Both the position numbers and the translations under genes were made by a program. The notes under the pieces were generated by a model. The model saw only the letters and a list, made by a program, of their open reading frames with translations, ran no database searches and had not been told where the DNA came from. This document shows, piece by piece, positions 18,466-60,796 of a stretch of 60,796 nucleotides of DNA (positions within the stretch are counted from its first letter, which is position 1; the number at the start of each line of letters is the position of its first letter). Source of the stretch: an uncultured Lachnoclostridium sp. (GTDB taxonomy: Bacteria; Bacillota; Clostridia; Lachnospirales; Lachnospiraceae); NCBI GenBank assembly GCA_946415315.1, contig CAMKRZ010000019.1:1-60796 (forward strand), read 5' to 3'.

Positions 18466-19908
18466 ATGATGGGATTGATTGAGAGAAAGAACCGTTACAT
18501 TGCCTTGTTGCTGACAGTTCTTCTGGCCTTTATCACCGCCGGCTGCGGCAAGGGTGGTTCCGGGACGGAGTCGCGGGAATCCAAAGACGATTCCGGGCAG
18601 GAGATGACAGTGACGCCGACCATGGTGCCGGATACGCCGACGCCGACCGCGGTGCCGGATACGCCGACGCCTACCGCGGTGCCGGATACGCCGACGCCGA
18701 CCGCGGTGCCGGACACACCGACACCTACACCGGCGGAGTCGACACCGACCGTACTGAAGATGTGGCATGACAGAACGAGTCCGTTTGAAATTGAGATCTA
18801 CAAGAAGGTCGCAGCAGAACTTGCGGAGAAGTACCCGAACATTACCCTTGAGATTGAGGTTATTGACATGTCCGGTTACAGGAATCTTCTTGCGGGTATT
18901 AAGAGAGCCGATGAACTGCCGGACATTTTTCTTGTCCTGGGGGATATGAGTTTTCAGAATTTGATGAAGCAGGGACTGGTGAGCTGCTTCGATGACGTTT
19001 ACCCGCAATACGAGGAGAAACTGGCCGAAAAGATGTGCGAGGCGTATTCCCTGGAGGGGAAGAAATATGCGGCGCCCAGCGTTATGAACGCGGTTGTCAT
19101 GTATGCCAACATGGATGTGCTTGCGCAGGTCGGTTACACGGCAATCCCGAAGACATGGGATGAGATGAAGAATTGCTGTGAACTGTTGATTGACGCGGGA
19201 AAGATCCCGTTCGCGATTTCCGGGAGGGAAACCTGGTGCCTGGAAGAGTATCTGGAATCGATTGCGCTACGGACCTGCGGGGAGGAAGAACTTCGGAAAA
19301 TCTTCTACGGCGAAGCGACCTGGAACAATGAGGGGATTGTCGAAGCAGTCGATCTTCTGCAGGAGATGAAGCAGAAAGGATACTTCGGTTGGAATTACGG
19401 GGAAATCTATAACGATCAGGTGAAAGAAGCGTTTATGGAGGGAAACCGGTACGCATTTTACGTAAACGGGTCATGGAACGTAAGCTGGTTTGAAAAGTCA
19501 GACAGTAAGATCACGGCGGAACCGTTCCCGGTGTTCGATACGTCGAAGTCCGAGTATAATCGGTTGATCGGAGGCCCGGGAGATGCATTTGCGGTTTCCT
19601 CAGCGATGAAGAACCCGGAGATTGCCAAGCAGTATGCCATGGATTTTGCGCAGTTGATCAGCCGGTATCTGTATCTCGCAGAGGAAGCTTACCCTGTCTG
19701 GGCGGTCGATTATGACTGTTCCGAGCTTTCCGTCATGCGACAGCAGATGGCGGAGATGCTGCTGAACACGGATTCGTTCCTGTTCTATTGTGATACGGTG
19801 ATCCCAACGGAAGAGCTTATGGTCTATGCCGTGGAGACGGGCAGGATTTTGGAGGATACGATGACCGGAAAGCAGTATGCCGAGAAGTTGGCTGAAGGGA
19901 TACGATAA
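18466..19908 (+). CDS. Extracellular solute-binding lipoprotein, sugar ABC transporter type
   Basis: Probable receptor of a carbohydrate ABC importer (family 1 solute-binding fold), 480 residues. A lipoprotein signal ends with lipobox ITAGC (Cys near residue 27). A tandem linker of four VPDTPTPTA-type repeats follows and spaces the binding domain from the membrane. The mature domain begins near PTVLKMWHDR and contains YANMDVLAQVGYTAIPKTWDEM and AFYVNGSWNVSWF, typical of sugar receptors. Either of two adjacent ATGs (18466, 18469) could start translation behind a G-rich ribosome site. No permease genes flank it, so it is an orphan receptor. Confidence 0.85.
   Translation: MMGLIERKNRYIALLLTVLLAFITAGCGKGGSGTESRESKDDSGQEMTVTPTMVPDTPTPTAVPDTPTPTAVPDTPTPTAVPDTPTPTPAESTPTVLKMWHDRTSPFEIEIYKKVAAELAEKYPNITLEIEVIDMSGYRNLLAGIKRADELPDIFLVLGDMSFQNLMKQGLVSCFDDVYPQYEEKLAEKMCEAYSLEGKKYAAPSVMNAVVMYANMDVLAQVGYTAIPKTWDEMKNCCELLIDAGKIPFAISGRETWCLEEYLESIALRTCGEEELRKIFYGEATWNNEGIVEAVDLLQEMKQKGYFGWNYGEIYNDQVKEAFMEGNRYAFYVNGSWNVSWFEKSDSKITAEPFPVFDTSKSEYNRLIGGPGDAFAVSSAMKNPEIAKQYAMDFAQLISRYLYLAEEAYPVWAVDYDCSELSVMRQQMAEMLLNTDSFLFYCDTVIPTEELMVYAVETGRILEDTMTGKQYAEKLAEGIR
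18625..18735 (+). repeat. 27-base in-frame tandem repeats coding VPDTPTPTA linker
   Basis: Four near-identical copies of a 27-base unit beginning GTGCCGGATACGCCGACGCC encode the Thr/Pro linker of the solute-binding lipoprotein. Such units are prone to copy-number change by slippage. Confidence 0.85.
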
Positions 19909-25967: not shown

Positions 25968-26630
25968 TCAGGCATCCGCGGAGTGGTTTTTTCTCTTTCG
26001 CAGGCGCCGCCTGTGCTTCTTCACCGGCTCCGGAGGATCCGGGATCTCCAGCACATACGATTCATACACATTGAGTATGGTTGTGCGGCCGTACGTGATC
26101 GGCCCTTTTTTCTTGTAGGAATAGTTGGCGTGCACATGCCCGTGGATATGGTATGCGGGATGGTAGCGGTCCATCATTTTCACGAACGCCTCAAAGCCGG
26201 TGTGCGTCAGATCCTCGCAGTCCCCGAGCCCCTTCGCCGGCGAGTGGGTCACCAGAATGTCAAATCCGTGGTTTCTCCAGATCCGGTACCGGAGCATCCT
26301 CGCACGGTGGTTCATGTCCGAATCGGTGTACTGATTGATGCCGGGACGGTACCGCATGGAACCGCCGAGACCAACGATGCGCAGGCCGCGGTAGTGATAC
26401 AGCTTTCCGTCGATGCATGTGCATCCGTCCGGCGGCGTCTGCTCGTAGCAGTCGTCGTGGTTGCCGTGGACGTAGAGCACCGGCACTTTGGTAAAGGTCG
26501 CCAGGAACGAGAGATACTGCGGCGCCAGATCGCCGCACGAGATGATGAGATCGTACGGGTCCAGCTTGCCGGGCTCGTAGAAGTCCCAGAGCGCTTTCGA
26601 TTCTTTGTCGGAGACGATGAGGATTTTCAT
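25968..26630 (-). CDS. Metallophosphoesterase
   Basis: Calcineurin-like metallophosphoesterase of 220 residues; substrate unknown. Metal-site motifs are SDKE near residue 8 (a Glu where most family members have His), CGDLAP, YVHGNHDD, VTHSP and HIHGHVHAN. The Arg/Lys-rich C-terminus (KKHRRRLRKRKN) might touch nucleic acid or membrane. It follows the ParB-like/BMP gene on the minus strand by 22 bases and is probably in its operon. Confidence 0.88.
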   Translation of the reverse strand: MKILIVSDKESKALWDFYEPGKLDPYDLIISCGDLAPQYLSFLATFTKVPVLYVHGNHDDCYEQTPPDGCTCIDGKLYHYRGLRIVGLGGSMRYRPGINQYTDSDMNHRARMLRYRIWRNHGFDILVTHSPAKGLGDCEDLTHTGFEAFVKMMDRYHPAYHIHGHVHANYSYKKKGPITYGRTTILNVYESYVLEIPDPPEPVKKHRRRLRKRKNHSADA

Positions 26631-42322: not shown

Positions 42323-42351
42323 TTGACAATATCAAACTCGGATGATATAGT
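42323..42351 (+). promoter_or_regulatory. Near-consensus promoter of the repeat-array RNA
   Basis: A perfect TTGACA (42323-42328), a 17-base spacer and TATAGT (42346-42351), backed by AT-rich upstream DNA. It is the best -35/-10 match in the window. Predicted start is near 42358. Confidence 0.85.
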
Positions 42352-42460
42352 ATAGCCATAACAAAGAACAAGCAACGCCGGATGGGATTCCTGGTCGAAC
42401 CCTATAACGATCCGGAGACCGGCAGGACGATCGGCGGTGAGAACGATCGAATAAATTTTC

Positions 42461-42797
42461 CGAAAGAAGGTACAGTCCGATGGACACTGCAAAGTAACAC
42501 CGAACAGACCAACGACAAGAATTGCGGAAAGAGAAGGTACGGTCCGATGGACACTGCGAAGTAATTAACCGGAACAGTCAGATCGAACAAATCTACCGAA
42601 AGAAGGTACAGTCCGATGGGAGCTGCAGAGTAACAACCGAAACAGGTTGATCGAACAAAACTACCGAAAGAGAAGGTACGGTCCGATGGACACTGCGAAG
42701 TAACAACTGGACAGATCTACCGAAAGGATTTACCGATTAATACAGTATCGAGTATCAAAAGAAGGATGGTACAGTCCGATGGGAACGATAGAGTAAC
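42461..42797 (+). repeat. Repeat block 1, about 69-base units with micro-ORFs
   Basis: Five units with the pattern GAAAGAAGGTACAGTCCGATG. Each ends in a complete five-codon frame: MDTAK at 42480-42497, 42547-42564 and 42686-42703, MGAAE at 42616-42633, MGTIE at 42779-42796, all stopped by TAA. A GAAGG or GGATGG element lies about 9 bases before each ATG. Confidence 0.8.
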
Positions 42798-42980
42798 AAC
42801 AGACGGCGCGTAAGACGGTGCCCTCACGAAAACAATAAGACGGCACAACGAGCAGGCAGTTAGCCGGTGACACACGGGTGTAAAAGAGAGAGGCCGTAGA
42901 ATTATTTGCCGGGAGAGAGCCGGGGCGACCGGATAGCCGGGATGGCTTTACATAGATGTTACCCTACGAACATAATGATT

Positions 42981-43375
42981 GAAAGGCTGGTACAGTCCGA
43001 TGAAATAGTCAGTTGACCGACGCATAACAATACTGCAGAAAGGATGGTACGGTCCAATGAAATAGTCAGATGACCGACCGCAAAAGAGATTAGCAGAACA
43101 GCTGGTACTGATCCAGAGCAGTTACAGTCGATCTTCGACTTTAGGATTATCACAGAAAGGCAGGTACGGTCCAAAGGAAGTATAAGTTGACCCACCTCAA
43201 AACGATATTGATGAAAGGAAGGTACGGTCCCAAGGAGACTTAAGCGATCTACCTCAAAACGATATTTACAGAAAGGAAGGTACGGTCCCAAGGACAACTA
43301 AGAGATCTACCTCAAAACGATAATTTCAGAAAGGAAGGTACGGACCAACACAGACATAAGTGTTCGACCTTACGG
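42981..43375 (+). repeat. Repeat block 2, about 58-base units
   Basis: Seven units with a very regular 57-59 base period. The last units share almost the whole unit (AGAAAGGAAGGTACGGTCCC and CTACCTCAAAACGATA). The first two end in the two-codon frame ATG AAA TAG (43000-43008 and 43057-43065); the others have lost the ATG. The unit at 43104 is the most decayed. Confidence 0.85.
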
Positions 43376-43424
43376 CAGCAGCAGGAACTGCCGGAACCGA
43401 AAGCCTGCATGATACTGAAGATAC

Positions 43425-43459
43425 CCGGCCGGAGTAAAGAACGTCTCCGGCCGGTCTTT
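43425..43459 (+). terminator. Terminator-like hairpin after the repeat array
   Basis: CCGGCCGGAG (43425-43434) and CTCCGGCCGG (43445-43454) form a perfect 10-base stem followed by TCTTTG. Confidence 0.65.
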
Positions 43460-43461
43460 GC

Positions 43462-43682
43462 GCGCTAAGCGAGAGTCGTTCTGCCGACGGAGTCGGCGAA
43501 ATAGTCCCACCGGCACGTGGACACATAGTGTTCGACGCGCCGGTGGGACTATTTCGGGAGCGAACATCGTTCGCGGCAGAACGACCGAGCGCACGTACAC
43601 TGAGCGAGCTCTGCTCGCGAAGTGCGCGCTTGAGAGCGGACGAAGTCCGCGGATGAGTGCCGAGCTCCCTACACTTCGCGAG
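43462..43682. repeat. Multi-branched palindromic element
   Basis: First module: outer arms GTCGTTCTGCCG (43475-43486) and CGGCAGAACGAC (43574-43585). They enclose GCCGAC/GTCGGC, the 17-base perfect stem GAAATAGTCCCACCGGC (43498-43514) with its partner at 43539-43555, and GCGAAC-ATC-GTTCGC (43560-43574). Second module: outer arms CTCGCGAAGTG (43614-43624) and CACTTCGCGAG (43672-43682) with GCGGAC-GAA-GTCCGC inside. Next to it is GCGAGC-TCT-GCTCGC (43604-43618), whose 3' arm overlaps the start of the second outer arm, so those two alternate. The smallest hairpins have three-base loops. Confidence 0.8.
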
Positions 43683-49816: not shown

Positions 49817-52330
49817 ATGAGAAGAAACAGAGCGAACAACCGAATATGGGCAATTGTGCTGACTGCAGTGATGTTCGTGTCGCTGATGATGCCGGTCGGT
49901 ATGTCGAAACTGCTATGCGGAACAGCCAACGCGGAAGAGGATGACCCGTTTAGCAATAAGGGACTTTTGGCGTATGTCAATTACAGCCCTGCTGTTGATG
50001 TCAGAGTCGGACCGGGACCAGGAGAAGCCCTGCTTCTGGATAATGAAGGTAACCCGGTCCAGCTCACGACCTCGACAATCGTGCGTGTTTTGGGGGATTT
50101 CACATATAGAAGTGGAACACAGGAAACCTATTGGAAAAAAATACAGTTTGACTATCATGGTGAGAAAGATTTGGTTGGCTATGTCATGGCCGCGACCCAA
50201 AATAGTAGAATTAATTATTTGCTTGATTTTGTGAGTAATCGCAATGATGAAGAGTATATAGGGTTTGTGGAGGAGATGAAGGCCGAAGGATTCCCAGAGT
50301 CTTATATAGAGATTCTTTGGGCAGTGCACCAGTGGAATCCCACGTGGACCTTTAAGGCTCAGCTGCTCGATGTTGACTGGAATGAGGCAGTCAACGAGGA
50401 GTACGATGATTTTCCGACTCTGAACAGCCGCAGACATCCGAGTGGATGGAAATCACTGGATCAGAAAGACTACAGATATGCTGTCGCTGACGGTAACGGG
50501 GGTCTAAAGGACGGCGGTTGGGTGTTGAAAGACGACAAATACGCCCGGGCTTCGAAGGAAATGCTTGCTTATGCGATGGATCCGCGCAATTTCCTCGGCG
50601 AGAGTACGATCTTCATGTTTGAGGATCTGGACTATTTACCTGAGGTTCAGACACAGGAGGGTGTGGAACGAATCCTGAATAAATACAAGGATTTTACGGG
50701 AGAAGTCGAAGGAACTACATATTCGGGCCTTTTCATGGAGGCTGCGAAAGAATCCGGAGTTAATCCCTATTTTTTGGCCACTAGAAGTGTTCACGAAGTC
50801 CATGATTCAAAGATGATTGAAGGTAAAGGGGTTTCCGTGAAGATTAACGGAGAATATGAAACTAAGTATAGTGGCTTGTACAATTACTATAATTTTAGTG
50901 CTTATGCTGGTAATGGTATGGGTGTTCTTGAACATGGTCTATGGTTTGCTAGTAAACAATATACCGATAAAGAGAGGGCTGCTAAAGATTTTTATGATGA
51001 TTTGCGCCCATGGAACACACGAAGGAAAGCAATCGTCGGCGGTGCCAAGAAGATGGCTCATGACTATGTCAAAGCCGGACAGAACACGCCGTATCTTCAG
51101 CGGTACAATGTAGCGCCTGCCAACGCGAAGAACAGGTACAGCCACCAGTACATGTCTCTTGTGTCAGCTCTGTATGAGGAAGCGTACATGTATTACTCCG
51201 GGTTGATGAGAGACGAAGATGAATATGCTGCGCTTGAAACACCGTTCGTGTTCCTAATCCCGGTATATAAGAACATGCCCGAAACGCCTTGCGAGCGCCC
51301 GACCGGCGACGGCAATCCCAACCCGTATCTTGCAGATTTGACGATAACGGGAGAGGGACTGGAAGAGGGGGCAGCGCTCTCTCCGACGTTTGCATGGAAC
51401 AAAACTGAGTATGCATTTACGGTAGAGGAGCCGGTTGAGAAGATCACGATTTCGGCGTCTCCTCTTGCGAAAACCACTAAGGTTTCAGGGACAGGAGAGA
51501 TCCTGCTTATACATGGCGAGACGGCCTGTGAGATCGAGTGCAAGGCGGAGAACGGAACGGTCGTCAAATACACGATTAAGATCACGCGGAAAGGCCAGGG
51601 GGAGGATCCGAGCGTAACGCCGAAACCTTCGCCGAGCGTATCACCGGAAGTATCGCCGAGCGTATCGCCCGAAGTATCACCGAGCGTGTCGCCTGAGGTT
51701 TCGCCGAGCGTATCACCGAGCGTATCACCGAGCGTATCACCGAGCGTGTCTCCGGTGGTCGTGCCGAGCGTGTCGCCCGAGGTATCTCCTAGCGTGTCAC
51801 CGAGTGTATCGCCTGAAGTGTCGCCGAGCGTGACGCCGACGGATACACCGACGCCTACGCCTACCGACACGCCTACGCCGACACCGACGAACACACCGAC
51901 GCCCACGCCGGAGCCGGAGAAGATCACCTCCGAAAAATACCAGGTGTCGGACGAGTATATTTGCAATATTGAACCCGGAACGGAGATGGCGGACTTCCTC
52001 TTGGCGCTGAAAGTGACCGGCGGAAGCAAGGTAACGCTGCTCAACGCGAAGGGCGAAGAGGTGACGGAGGGCACGGTCGGTACCGGGTGGACTCTGAAGA
52101 CGAAGGAACACAGCATTCCGATCGTTGTTTTCGGAGATGTTTCCGGCGATGGTGACGTTTCCGCGATCGACCTTTTGTATATCCGGCGGCATTTGCTGGA
52201 CATCAGTGAACTGTCGGGAGCCGCGCTGACCGCGGCGGACGTGAAGAGCGACGGGGAGATTACGGCGCTTGACCTGTTGTATGTCAAGCGGCATATCCTC
52301 GATATCGCTGTGATCGTTCAGAAACGATAA
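49817..52330 (+). CDS. Secreted glucosaminidase (GH73-type) with dockerin domain
   Basis: 837 residues. A signal peptide ends near GTANA. An SH3-like region follows (VDVRVGPGPGE, about 55-125). Residues about 150-500 resemble LytB/GH73 N-acetylglucosaminidases (GVNPYFLATRSVHEV, YNYYNFSAYAGNGM, AKKMAHDYVKAGQNTPYLQ), predicted to cut peptidoglycan. Then come a cadherin-like beta domain (about 515-595), a long SVSPEVSPS/TPTP linker, and a C-terminal type I dockerin (about 772-832). Its two calcium-loop repeats are GDVSGDGDVSAIDLLYIRRH and ADVKSDGEITALDLLYVKRH. The start at 49817 has GGAGG upstream. The SH3-to-catalytic part is clearly more AT-rich than its flanks. Confidence 0.88.
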   Translation: MRRNRANNRIWAIVLTAVMFVSLMMPVGMSKLLCGTANAEEDDPFSNKGLLAYVNYSPAVDVRVGPGPGEALLLDNEGNPVQLTTSTIVRVLGDFTYRSGTQETYWKKIQFDYHGEKDLVGYVMAATQNSRINYLLDFVSNRNDEEYIGFVEEMKAEGFPESYIEILWAVHQWNPTWTFKAQLLDVDWNEAVNEEYDDFPTLNSRRHPSGWKSLDQKDYRYAVADGNGGLKDGGWVLKDDKYARASKEMLAYAMDPRNFLGESTIFMFEDLDYLPEVQTQEGVERILNKYKDFTGEVEGTTYSGLFMEAAKESGVNPYFLATRSVHEVHDSKMIEGKGVSVKINGEYETKYSGLYNYYNFSAYAGNGMGVLEHGLWFASKQYTDKERAAKDFYDDLRPWNTRRKAIVGGAKKMAHDYVKAGQNTPYLQRYNVAPANAKNRYSHQYMSLVSALYEEAYMYYSGLMRDEDEYAALETPFVFLIPVYKNMPETPCERPTGDGNPNPYLADLTITGEGLEEGAALSPTFAWNKTEYAFTVEEPVEKITISASPLAKTTKVSGTGEILLIHGETACEIECKAENGTVVKYTIKITRKGQGEDPSVTPKPSPSVSPEVSPSVSPEVSPSVSPEVSPSVSPSVSPSVSPSVSPVVVPSVSPEVSPSVSPSVSPEVSPSVTPTDTPTPTPTDTPTPTPTNTPTPTPEPEKITSEKYQVSDEYICNIEPGTEMADFLLALKVTGGSKVTLLNAKGEEVTEGTVGTGWTLKTKEHSIPIVVFGDVSGDGDVSAIDLLYIRRHLLDISELSGAALTAADVKSDGEITALDLLYVKRHILDIAVIVQKR
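51605..51915 (+). repeat. In-frame tandem repeats coding SVSPEVSP and TPTP linker
   Basis: About fifteen copies of units close to CCGAGCGTATCACC (Pro-Ser-Val-Ser) with interspersed GAAGTATCG, then TPTPTDTP-type codons. These encode the long spacer of the dockerin protein. Confidence 0.9.
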
Positions 52331-59328: not shown

Positions 59329-60796
59329 ATGAAGCTTTTTCAGCGACAATGGATGATCGACCGGTTTCGGCGATGGCTGACTGCGCATGCCGGTGCAGCG
59401 ATGCGGCTGGCACTCACGGCTGTCCTTGCGCTTTTGATCGTCGTGGCCGGCGCAGGTGCGGCAGCCGGCGGCGATGCAGCGGAAACGGCCAAGGAAGCCG
59501 TCTCACTCGACATCACCGTGAAGAACGCGAAGGGCAGCAAGCAGAGCAAACTGCGCGACAATTCAAACAAATCCCGCGAAAAATACAAAAAGGGCGAGGT
59601 CCTCACCGTGACGTCCAAGGAGCCGATGAGCGGCATCTACATCCGCTGGGGCTCGCCGGTCTCGCCGTATACACTGAAATATAACGACCACTCGGAAAAA
59701 CACGGCGAACAGGGCTTCCTGCACGACTATGTCGCGTTGGCGGAGCCCGCGACAAGCGTGGACATCGTGATCGGGAAAGATGTCTACGTGAGCGAGATCG
59801 AGGCATTTTCCGAAGGCAAATTGCCCGCGGATGTGCAGGTGTGGCAGCCGGCGCTGAAGGAGGCGGACATCCTGGTCCTGTCGACGCACGCGGACGACGA
59901 GATTCTCTTTATGGGCGGTGTGCTTGCCCAATACGGCGGGCAGGAGAAACGGAAAGTGCAGGTCGCGTACATGTGTGAATTCTGGCAGACGGAGCACGTG
60001 CGCGAGCATGAGAAACTCGACGGGCTGTGGGCGAGCGGGATCCGCAACTACCCGGTCTGCATGGGGTATTACGACTATTATTCGAAGACTCTCGACAAAG
60101 CCAAGACGCAGTATGATATCAAAAAACTCACGAAAAGCGTGTGCGAGGTGGTCCGCCGCTTCAAGCCGCTCGTCATCGTGACGCACGACATCAAGGGCGA
60201 GTACGGCCACGGCGGCCACATGATCCTGAACGCGGCGGTGCAGGAAGTGATCGAGCACTCGATGGACGCGTCCTATCAGCCGGAATCGGCCGAAAAGTAC
60301 GGAACCTGGGATGTCCCGAAGACGTATTTTCATCTTTATACGGAAAATAAGCTCCGCCTGAACATGCGCGTGCCGCTCTCCGAATTCGGCGGCAAGACGG
60401 CGCTTGAGGTGGCGGAAGCAGCATATAAGAAGCATGAGTCACAGCAGTGGTGCTGGTTCTATGTCTCCGACGATTACGAGTACAGCGCGGCGGAGTTCGG
60501 TCTGTTCCGCACGACCGTCGGCCCGGACACCGGGAACAACATGATGGAACATGCGTCCCGGTCGAAGGCGACAAACACGCCGACACCGAAGCCCGAAGTG
60601 ACGGGAGAGCCGGCGGATAAGCCGACACCCGAAGTGACGGAAGAACCGAAGGCAACGGTCACGCCGATGCCGACAAGCACGCCGACGCCAACCCCGACGG
60701 CCACACCGACTAGCACGCCTACCCCGAAACCAACGAACACGCCGACGCCGACCGACACGCCGACGCCGACGAACACGCCGACGCCGACGAACACGC
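59329..60796 (+). CDS. Secreted PIG-L family deacetylase, 3' end outside the window
   Basis: At least 489 residues, open at the window end. A signal peptide or anchor lies at about 24-50. A beta-rich N-terminal region (55-165) precedes a PIG-L/LmbE domain with the metal motif HADDE (187-191; usual form HPDDE) and [14 protein letters not shown] as the second metal region. These enzymes remove acetyl groups from GlcNAc-type sugars. From about residue 415 a long Thr/Pro linker ([14 protein letters not shown]) runs into the window edge, so a further domain or anchor is expected. The ATG at 59329 has only a weak ribosome site. Confidence 0.85.
60570..60796 (+). repeat. Low-complexity Thr/Pro codon repeats
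   Basis: Short iterations of ACGCCGACGCCGAC code for the TPTP linker of the PIG-L protein and continue past the window end. Confidence 0.85.

Follow-up and report, generated by a model that had tools for sequence, protein, structure and literature searches.

CsrB and CsrC are strongly made sponge RNAs that carry many copies of a short motif. The raiA motif/ModT, ROOL and GOLLD RNAs have a link to phages. The STAB-SD element has the sequence GAAAGGAGG. Titles cited in PMC8012679 attribute to lambda bar and to artificial minigenes an inhibition of translation through the accumulation of peptidyl-tRNA. STAB-SD, a 5′ mRNA stabiliser of cry3A, is described in parts of PMC4113751 as binding the 30S subunit without directing initiation, and a two-codon mini-ORF with a regulatory effect is described for axe-txe in parts of PMC8708949. 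PMC11706538 and PMC12286853 present raiA motif/ModT, ROOL and GOLLD as noncoding RNAs spread over Bacillota.

We analysed a window of 60,796 nucleotides (the whole stretch of DNA under study) that contains a tandem array at 42323-43460. The original prediction had described this array as strongly promoted, apparently non-coding, and an unrecognised sponge or decoy RNA that perhaps binds a CsrA-like protein or ribosomes. Our analysis suggests that its units are miniature genes, each with a Shine-Dalgarno sequence, a conserved core and a very short in-frame ORF.

Layout of the array

The following features, all on the + strand, were located in the array.

42323 to 42351, + strand: promoter TTGACA-17-TATAGT, read from the sequence; consensus score 11.5/12.5
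42457 to 42497, + strand: unit 1; Shine-Dalgarno; core 42469-42478; mini-ORF ATG GAC ACT GCA AAG TAA
42524 to 42564, + strand: unit 2; core 42536-42545; ATG GAC ACT GCG AAG TAA
42593 to 42633, + strand: unit 3; core 42605-42614; ATG GGA GCT GCA GAG TAA
42663 to 42703, + strand: unit 4; core 42675-42684; ATG GAC ACT GCG AAG TAA
42756 to 42796, + strand: unit 5; core 42768-42777; ATG GGA ACG ATA GAG TAA
42977 to 43008, + strand: unit 6; core 42989-42998; ATG AAA TAG
43034 to 43065, + strand: unit 7; core 43046-43055; ATG AAA TAG
43104 to 43114, + strand: degenerate unit GGTACTGATCC, read from the sequence, in register with the 57-59 base period
43151 to 43185, + strand: unit 8, start-less; core 43163-43172; AAG GAA GTA TAA
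43209 to 43243, + strand: unit 9, start-less; core 43221-43230; AAG GAG ACT TAA
43267 to 43301, + strand: unit 10, start-less; core 43279-43288; AAG GAC AAC TAA
43325 to 43359, + strand: unit 11, start-less; core 43337-43346 (GGTACGGACC); ACA CAG ACA TAA
43425 to 43459, + strand: terminal 10-bp hairpin with a weak T-run, read from the sequence, presumed terminator

The promoter (TTGACA at 42323-42328, TATAGT at 42346-42351, 17-base gap) and the AT-rich DNA upstream of it were found as predicted, and a score of at least 11, the level of this promoter (11.5), was reached by 1.2% of shuffled upstream stretches. The predicted terminal hairpin with its 10-base stem was also present, with arms CCGGCCGGAG and CTCCGGCCGG at 43425-43454 followed by the weak T-run TCTTT. 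Between promoter and hairpin lie 11 intact units with the core GGTACRGWCC and one degenerate unit, so that the predicted number of twelve holds if the degenerate unit at 43104 is counted. The units themselves are real, but the full string GAAAGGAAGGTACGGTCC is exact in two units only, and five fit GAAAGNNNGGTACNGTCC exactly. The shorter GGTACNGTCC occurs in 10 copies on the + strand (42469-43288), with one unrelated − strand site in the window at 26344. Shuffles of the sequence gave 0.17 copies on average and reached 11 copies in 0/100 cases; ten exact copies on one strand are therefore not due to chance. Core-to-core spacing is 67, 69, 70, 93 and 221 bases and then, from 42989 and with the degenerate unit counted, 57-59 bases.

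On one side of the array lies a gene for a fused ABC transporter, with the Pfam domains ABC_tran and BPD_transp_1, and on the other side lies greA. A large nested inverted repeat (43475-43585) is located between the array hairpin and greA, with 25-nt arms, 92% complementary, inside 12-nt perfect arms. Other tandem repeats of the window, at 18612-18749, 51608-51839 and 60669-60796, have periods that are multiples of three and are probably low-complexity coding repeats. Within its own genome the array is the sole strong locus, with 11 matches at E <= 3.2e-4 and the next ones (0.026, 0.70 and 1.6) elsewhere.

Distribution and architecture of related loci

A BLAST search with the array gave matches in 15/299 family genomes, its own included; one of these (L009) is an apparent chance site inside a gene. 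A sequence-only model of the unit had matches in 239/397 genomes from the family to which the window belongs at E<=0.05, a per-genome threshold at which about 20 of the 397 are expected by chance. At E<=0.001 the model matched 17/196 genomes in the order and 12/245 in the class, other families among them. The pattern RRRRGGTACRGWCCACCR was present in 94/394 family genomes and the reversed control pattern in none. A scan of one genome per species yielded 65 stretches; for 63 the record title gives Clostridia, Lachnospiraceae, Oscillospiraceae, Clostridiaceae or Eubacterium, and for the other two it gives no taxon.

Promoters of this strength are common in the family. A score of at least 11 out of 12.5 was seen upstream of the first unit in 69/104 loci, compared with 3/104 on the opposite strand and 1.2% of shuffles. 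A cut-off of at least 9 is uninformative because, although 96/106 loci reach it, 67.2% of shuffles do too. No Rfam 15 family reached its gathering score in the window, and among 40 related loci the only Rfam matches were to T-box, LSU rRNA and tRNA, away from the units; scans at low thresholds gave weak sub-threshold matches only, in L070 at the terminator hairpin. The relatives in family genomes, the promoter scores and the absence of an Rfam match bear out the earlier view of an unrecognised, strongly promoted RNA. Synteny with greA, which had been proposed as a check, did not extend to relatives: greA was found in 0/253 loci, many of which span about 3 kb, the 14-kb locus of the sibling genome (G189) included. 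In the sibling, the array again lies 3′ of the ABC gene, which is 55% identical. One related locus (L050) lies directly behind the 3′ end of an LSU rRNA and a tRNA.

The 170 clusters that were collected contain one unit (88), two (44), three (12) or 4-11 (26), the window array with its 11 units being the largest. Start-bearing and start-less units are mixed, and among the 82 multi-unit clusters 47 begin with a start-less and 50 end with a start-bearing unit. A terminator stem within 12 nt of the last stop or overlapping the ORF was found in 28/103 clusters with a hairpin and T-run, by a terminator finder that was run without a control. Downstream ORFs in bacteria lie on the same strand in 52 and on the opposite strand in 40 of 92 loci. 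In Oscillospiraceae-type loci the last ORF begins with MLDIK and ends with TGA in 19/67 matches, a count obtained with a pattern that contains part of MLDIK; in L070, L074 and like loci this TGA sits in the terminator stem. Three loci of this type (L070, L071 and L073) share further stretches between the first and last ORF, such as ACGACGGTG and TTCRCCTTTTG, which probably form a structured body.

Sixteen loci (L036, L040, L045, L050, L051, L062, L076, L079, L088, L095, L105, L106, L107, L129, L134 and L008) contain a hairpin with the invariant 11-nt loop TGACGAGAAAG and compensatory changes in all ten stem pairs. Paired cells amount to 78.1%, and covariation is 0.790 compared with 0.218 +/- 0.038 for shuffles (0/500 as high) and 0.10-0.19 for slid versions. 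This hairpin, often about 120-130 nt 3′ of the first unit, appears to be a separate structured element. Base pairing between the first core and the last mini-ORF was predicted in viral copies, but the folds of these RNAs do not surpass those of shuffles (z −0.72, −1.52, 0.79 and −0.24), and only 4/25 bacterial loci fell within the best 5%.

Reading-frame phase of the units

The claim that no long frame is conserved stands, as none runs through the array, but with frame 0 counted from the second base behind the core, a short in-frame ORF is present in 11/11 intact units, with the stop after 2-5 codons. Five units have ATG-xxx-xxx-xxx-xxx-stop, two have ATG-AAA-TAG, and four have AAG or ACA, two further codons and TAA. 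The description as apparently non-coding was thus wrong in detail, since the AUG units carry mini-ORFs that look translated. Of the initial 54 units, taken from the window and its relatives, 53 have an in-frame stop within 7 codons and all have one within 12, while stop positions in the other two frames are spread widely. At 231 sites in 102 loci that were picked by the core only, and that include off-target sites inside genes, a stop within 7 codons was found in 205 cases in frame 0, 83 in frame +1 and 99 in frame +2.

The enlarged collection of 367 distinct units comprises 179 start-bearing, 180 start-less and 8 other units. Stops within 7 codons in frames 0, +1 and +2 number 157, 109 and 57 for start-bearing units, where 67 of the 109 frame +1 stops are the TGA within ATGA, and 170, 63 and 84 for start-less units. 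The unit model (R1) was built from 51 of the 54 units, leaving out L023 7288 and L033 7441, both doubtful, and L022 6404, dropped at the alignment step; because it includes the stop columns, the lists derived from it are biased towards units whose stop lies at codon 4. As a guard against this circularity, samples were picked with patterns reaching no further than codon 1, although these samples share genomes with R1. They were collapsed to distinct sequences and consist of 63 bacterial ATG units (from 67 matches), 14 viral units (from 21) and 35 start-less units drawn from 30 loci among 94 matching genomes. A stop by codon index 5 was present in 56/63 bacterial AUG, 14/14 viral and 32/35 start-less units, compared with shuffle means of 20.0, 5.1 and 13.6, and these counts were reached in 0/2000 shuffles of the 42 bases after codon 1. 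The corresponding counts in frames +1 and +2 were 0 and 6 (bacterial AUG), 8 and 4 (viral), and 11 and 11 (start-less).

The bacterial samples use TAA, TAG and TGA, and TTG or GTG sometimes replaces the ATG start. The phase, the use of all three stop codons and the start-codon usage together give good sequence support for translation of the AUG units. In 35 near pairs, changes at first, second and third codon positions within the ORF number 8, 6 and 13 for start-bearing and 9, 12 and 17 for start-less units, and the third-position excess weakly supports coding. The encoded peptides vary, with 43 distinct frame-0 ORFs among the 63 bacterial units. Exceptions to the phase were also seen: one related match (L144) ends at a contig end, and in four copies from one MAG, RGIG4241 (L145, L168, L185 and L192), the unit heads an ORF of 16 or 59 amino acids before another gene start, as if it had been recruited as a leader. 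A tmRNA, sought by ARAGORN in 20 loci as a tRNA-like domain with a tag ORF, was not found.

Shine-Dalgarno complementarity and the conserved core

Upstream of the core lies a purine-rich stretch with a consensus near AGAAAGGAGGT that complements the 3′ tail of 16S rRNA, ...ACCTCCTTTCT. The 16S rRNA of four relatives ends in GGATCACCTCCTTTCT; the tail was not found in the window's own genome, in the sibling or in G323. For units that had been preselected for purine-rich upstream DNA, the median duplex energy was −11.8 kcal/mol for start-bearing and −13.1 kcal/mol for start-less units, compared with −6.1 and −5.6 for shuffles. A duplex of −6 kcal/mol or lower was predicted in 178/179 start-bearing and 179/180 start-less units of this preselected set (92 and 85 in shuffles). 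The presence of a Shine-Dalgarno sequence in nearly all units fits the suggestion that the RNA perhaps binds ribosomes.

The GGTA and CC of the core are invariant over 51 units. Conservation of the core is as high as that of the Shine-Dalgarno sequence, and additional pairing with 16S rRNA does not explain it. Extended pairing of the core was no better than that of shuffled cores: for six core strings, 53, 38, 41, 11, 32 and 33 of 60 shuffles paired equally strongly, and the pairing beat 95% of shuffles in only 2/170 and 0/175 units.

Start-less units

About half of the units (180/367) have AAG, CCR or ACA as first codon in place of a start, and 130 of these 180 contain no in-frame ATG, GTG or TTG between the upstream stop and codon 1. 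A long protein or an upstream-started peptide that reads Y-G-P through the core was rejected as a general rule because of these 130 units and because of in-frame stops close upstream. Start-less units without the usual codon-4 stop have an in-frame stop by codon index 5 in 33/48 cases (shuffle mean 17.6, 0/2000), but frame +1 gives 29, and the 48 include several close homologues. Position 5 of the core is A in 16/170 start-bearing and 0/173 start-less units, as though reading of the frame continued across this position. The start-less AAG GAA ACA GTA GCT TAA resembles the viral ATG GAC ACT GTA GCT TAA with its start replaced. It is quite doubtful that the start-less units represent AUG-less ribosome entry, with the frame set by the Shine-Dalgarno sequence and core alone, in a free-standing RNA family of Clostridia and viruses.

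Copies in viral genomes

In IMG/VR, 21 compact copies were found on 20 viral contigs (loci L230-L249), two of them in L249. Each consists of a strong promoter, a first unit (e.g. ATG GGC TAA), a second unit (e.g. ATG GAC ACT GTA GCT TAA) and a terminator. A gene of one and the same kind follows 18/21 copies, usually directly; Pfam, run on one of these genes, indicates a DNA polymerase III alpha-like protein. L240 and one of the two copies in L249 are followed by a different gene, and the L233 contig is not long enough to tell. The start-less pattern that was tried gave no viral match, and the 1116-base array gave none among phage records. A search of phage records with the viral element returned two weak A/T-rich matches, both to one Geobacillus virus, that were taken as chance. 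A plasmid search returned one short match, in Vescimonas fastidiosa.

Discussion

We tentatively favour a reading, which may well prove wrong, in which the RNA occupies ribosomes or 30S subunits through its minigene arrays. A free-standing RNA with 1 to 11 units would be made from a strong promoter, and each unit, with its extended Shine-Dalgarno sequence, core GG(U)ACRGWCC, start codon, few codons and stop, would recruit a ribosome. On an AUG unit the recruited ribosome would pass through a futile cycle of initiation and termination before release, whereas 30S subunits bound at start-less units (AAG, CCR and ACA) would rarely or never initiate productively. In this way the RNA would titrate free 30S subunits or the capacity for initiation and serve as a decoy or buffer for translation, with a compact two-unit version in viral genomes. 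Expression of the RNA and its binding to ribosomes in the cell would both be required; we infer titration in trans from the multiplicity of units, from the reduced version in viruses and from the absence of any consistent downstream gene in bacteria. Single-unit clusters (88/170) would offer little as a titrating RNA and were counted against this reading, as were the failure to find the 16S tail in the window's own genome, the conservation of the core beyond what 16S pairing explains, and the polymerase gene 3′ of 18/21 viral copies, which also fits a role in cis. Start-less units, about half of those collected, fall outside simple minigene cycling, and nonetheless keep the in-frame stop.

It is somewhat unlikely that the units act in cis as stabilisers, holding ribosomes or 30S subunits to block decay by RNase J/Y while the body of the RNA has another job. 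STAB-SD, which parts of PMC4113751 describe as blocking RNase J1 by binding 30S without initiating, provides a precedent, as does the axe-txe mini-ORF, which acts in cis, possibly through mRNA stability, according to parts of PMC8708949. The position of the first unit right behind the promoter in Oscillospiraceae-type loci and the separate covarying hairpin with loop TGACGAGAAAG in 16 sequences point the same way. However, up to 11 units exceed the need of a 5′ stabiliser, viral copies hold little beyond their two units, and protection needs no phased stop. Nor would a phased stop be needed if the RNA were a sponge for an RNA-binding protein, with GG(U)ACRGWCC as the protein's site and the Shine-Dalgarno sequence and mini-ORF secondary. 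Such a sponge would account for the invariant GGTA and CC in 51 units, which 16S pairing does not explain, but we consider it unlikely: matches outside the array in its own genome are weak (E 0.026, 0.70 and 1.6), so that no regulon of the motif is evident, and CsrA is absent. CsrA itself, the protein suggested originally, has a negligible chance of being the target, although the many GGA-containing repeats speak for it. PF02599 was not matched in the window's own genome (G000, 97.5% complete) or in the sibling G189, and a CsrA sponge is therefore unsupported and was rejected for the own genome; among other genomes, CsrA was present in 14/30 with strong RNA matches and 13/20 without a listed match.

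An attenuator or leader, in which translation of the last mini-ORF (with a stop that often touches the terminator) would adjust how far transcription continues into the following gene, would explain the stems within 12 nt of the stop or overlapping the ORF (28/103 clusters, from the finder run without a control), the polymerase-like gene behind 18/21 viral copies (Pfam on one) and the four copies in one MAG in which a 16- or 59-aa ORF lies before a gene start. It is distinctly unlikely, given bacterial downstream ORFs on the same strand in 52 and the opposite strand in 40 cases, and an attenuator of a fixed bacterial gene was rejected on these counts. That the mini-ORFs encode functional short peptides, signals or toxins is very improbable: a theme recurs in some last ORFs (MLDIK in 19/67, where the pattern includes part of it, and pentapeptides beginning with MD), but the peptides differ in most units (43 distinct ORFs in 63 units).

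If ribosome occupation is correct, many gut Clostridia and some likely phages would make an RNA that works through a string of sites for ribosome entry, each leading into a frame only a few codons long. Such an RNA would add an unlisted mechanism for setting or sensing how many ribosomes are available, in bacteria that dominate the human and ruminant gut, and would be a direct test case for whether cells buffer free ribosomes with RNA. The start-less units pose the question whether ribosomes of bacteria can adopt a reading frame where no start codon is present, and the array illustrates that a tandem repeat without a long ORF may be coding in miniature.

To our knowledge, no RNA family described so far consists of a stand-alone array of units like these. 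In a literature collection covering few subscription journals and no preprints, a search with the core in RNA letters found nothing; one with GACGAGAAAG gave, among the matches listed, none related by title; and other searches returned no recognised description of this RNA. On these grounds we consider the stand-alone minigene-array architecture, as read from sequence, categorically new, with parts that resemble known systems and a function that is putative. The array shares with lambda bar minigenes a Shine-Dalgarno sequence, an AUG and a very short in-frame ORF (in 7/11 window units), but differs in its arrangement as arrays in stand-alone RNAs, its conserved core, its lack of fixed codons and the absence of AUG from about half of the units. 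Start-less units resemble STAB-SD in being strongly complementary to the anti-Shine-Dalgarno sequence (median −13.1 kcal/mol) without a start codon, whereas STAB-SD is a single site in a long mRNA leader and has no core or in-frame stop. Mini-ORFs are shared with axe-txe, which holds one minigene in a toxin-antitoxin operon and no array. No Rfam match connects the window or the 40 related loci to raiA motif/ModT, ROOL or GOLLD, and unlike CsrB and CsrC the array has a different motif, translation-phased units and a genome that lacks CsrA.
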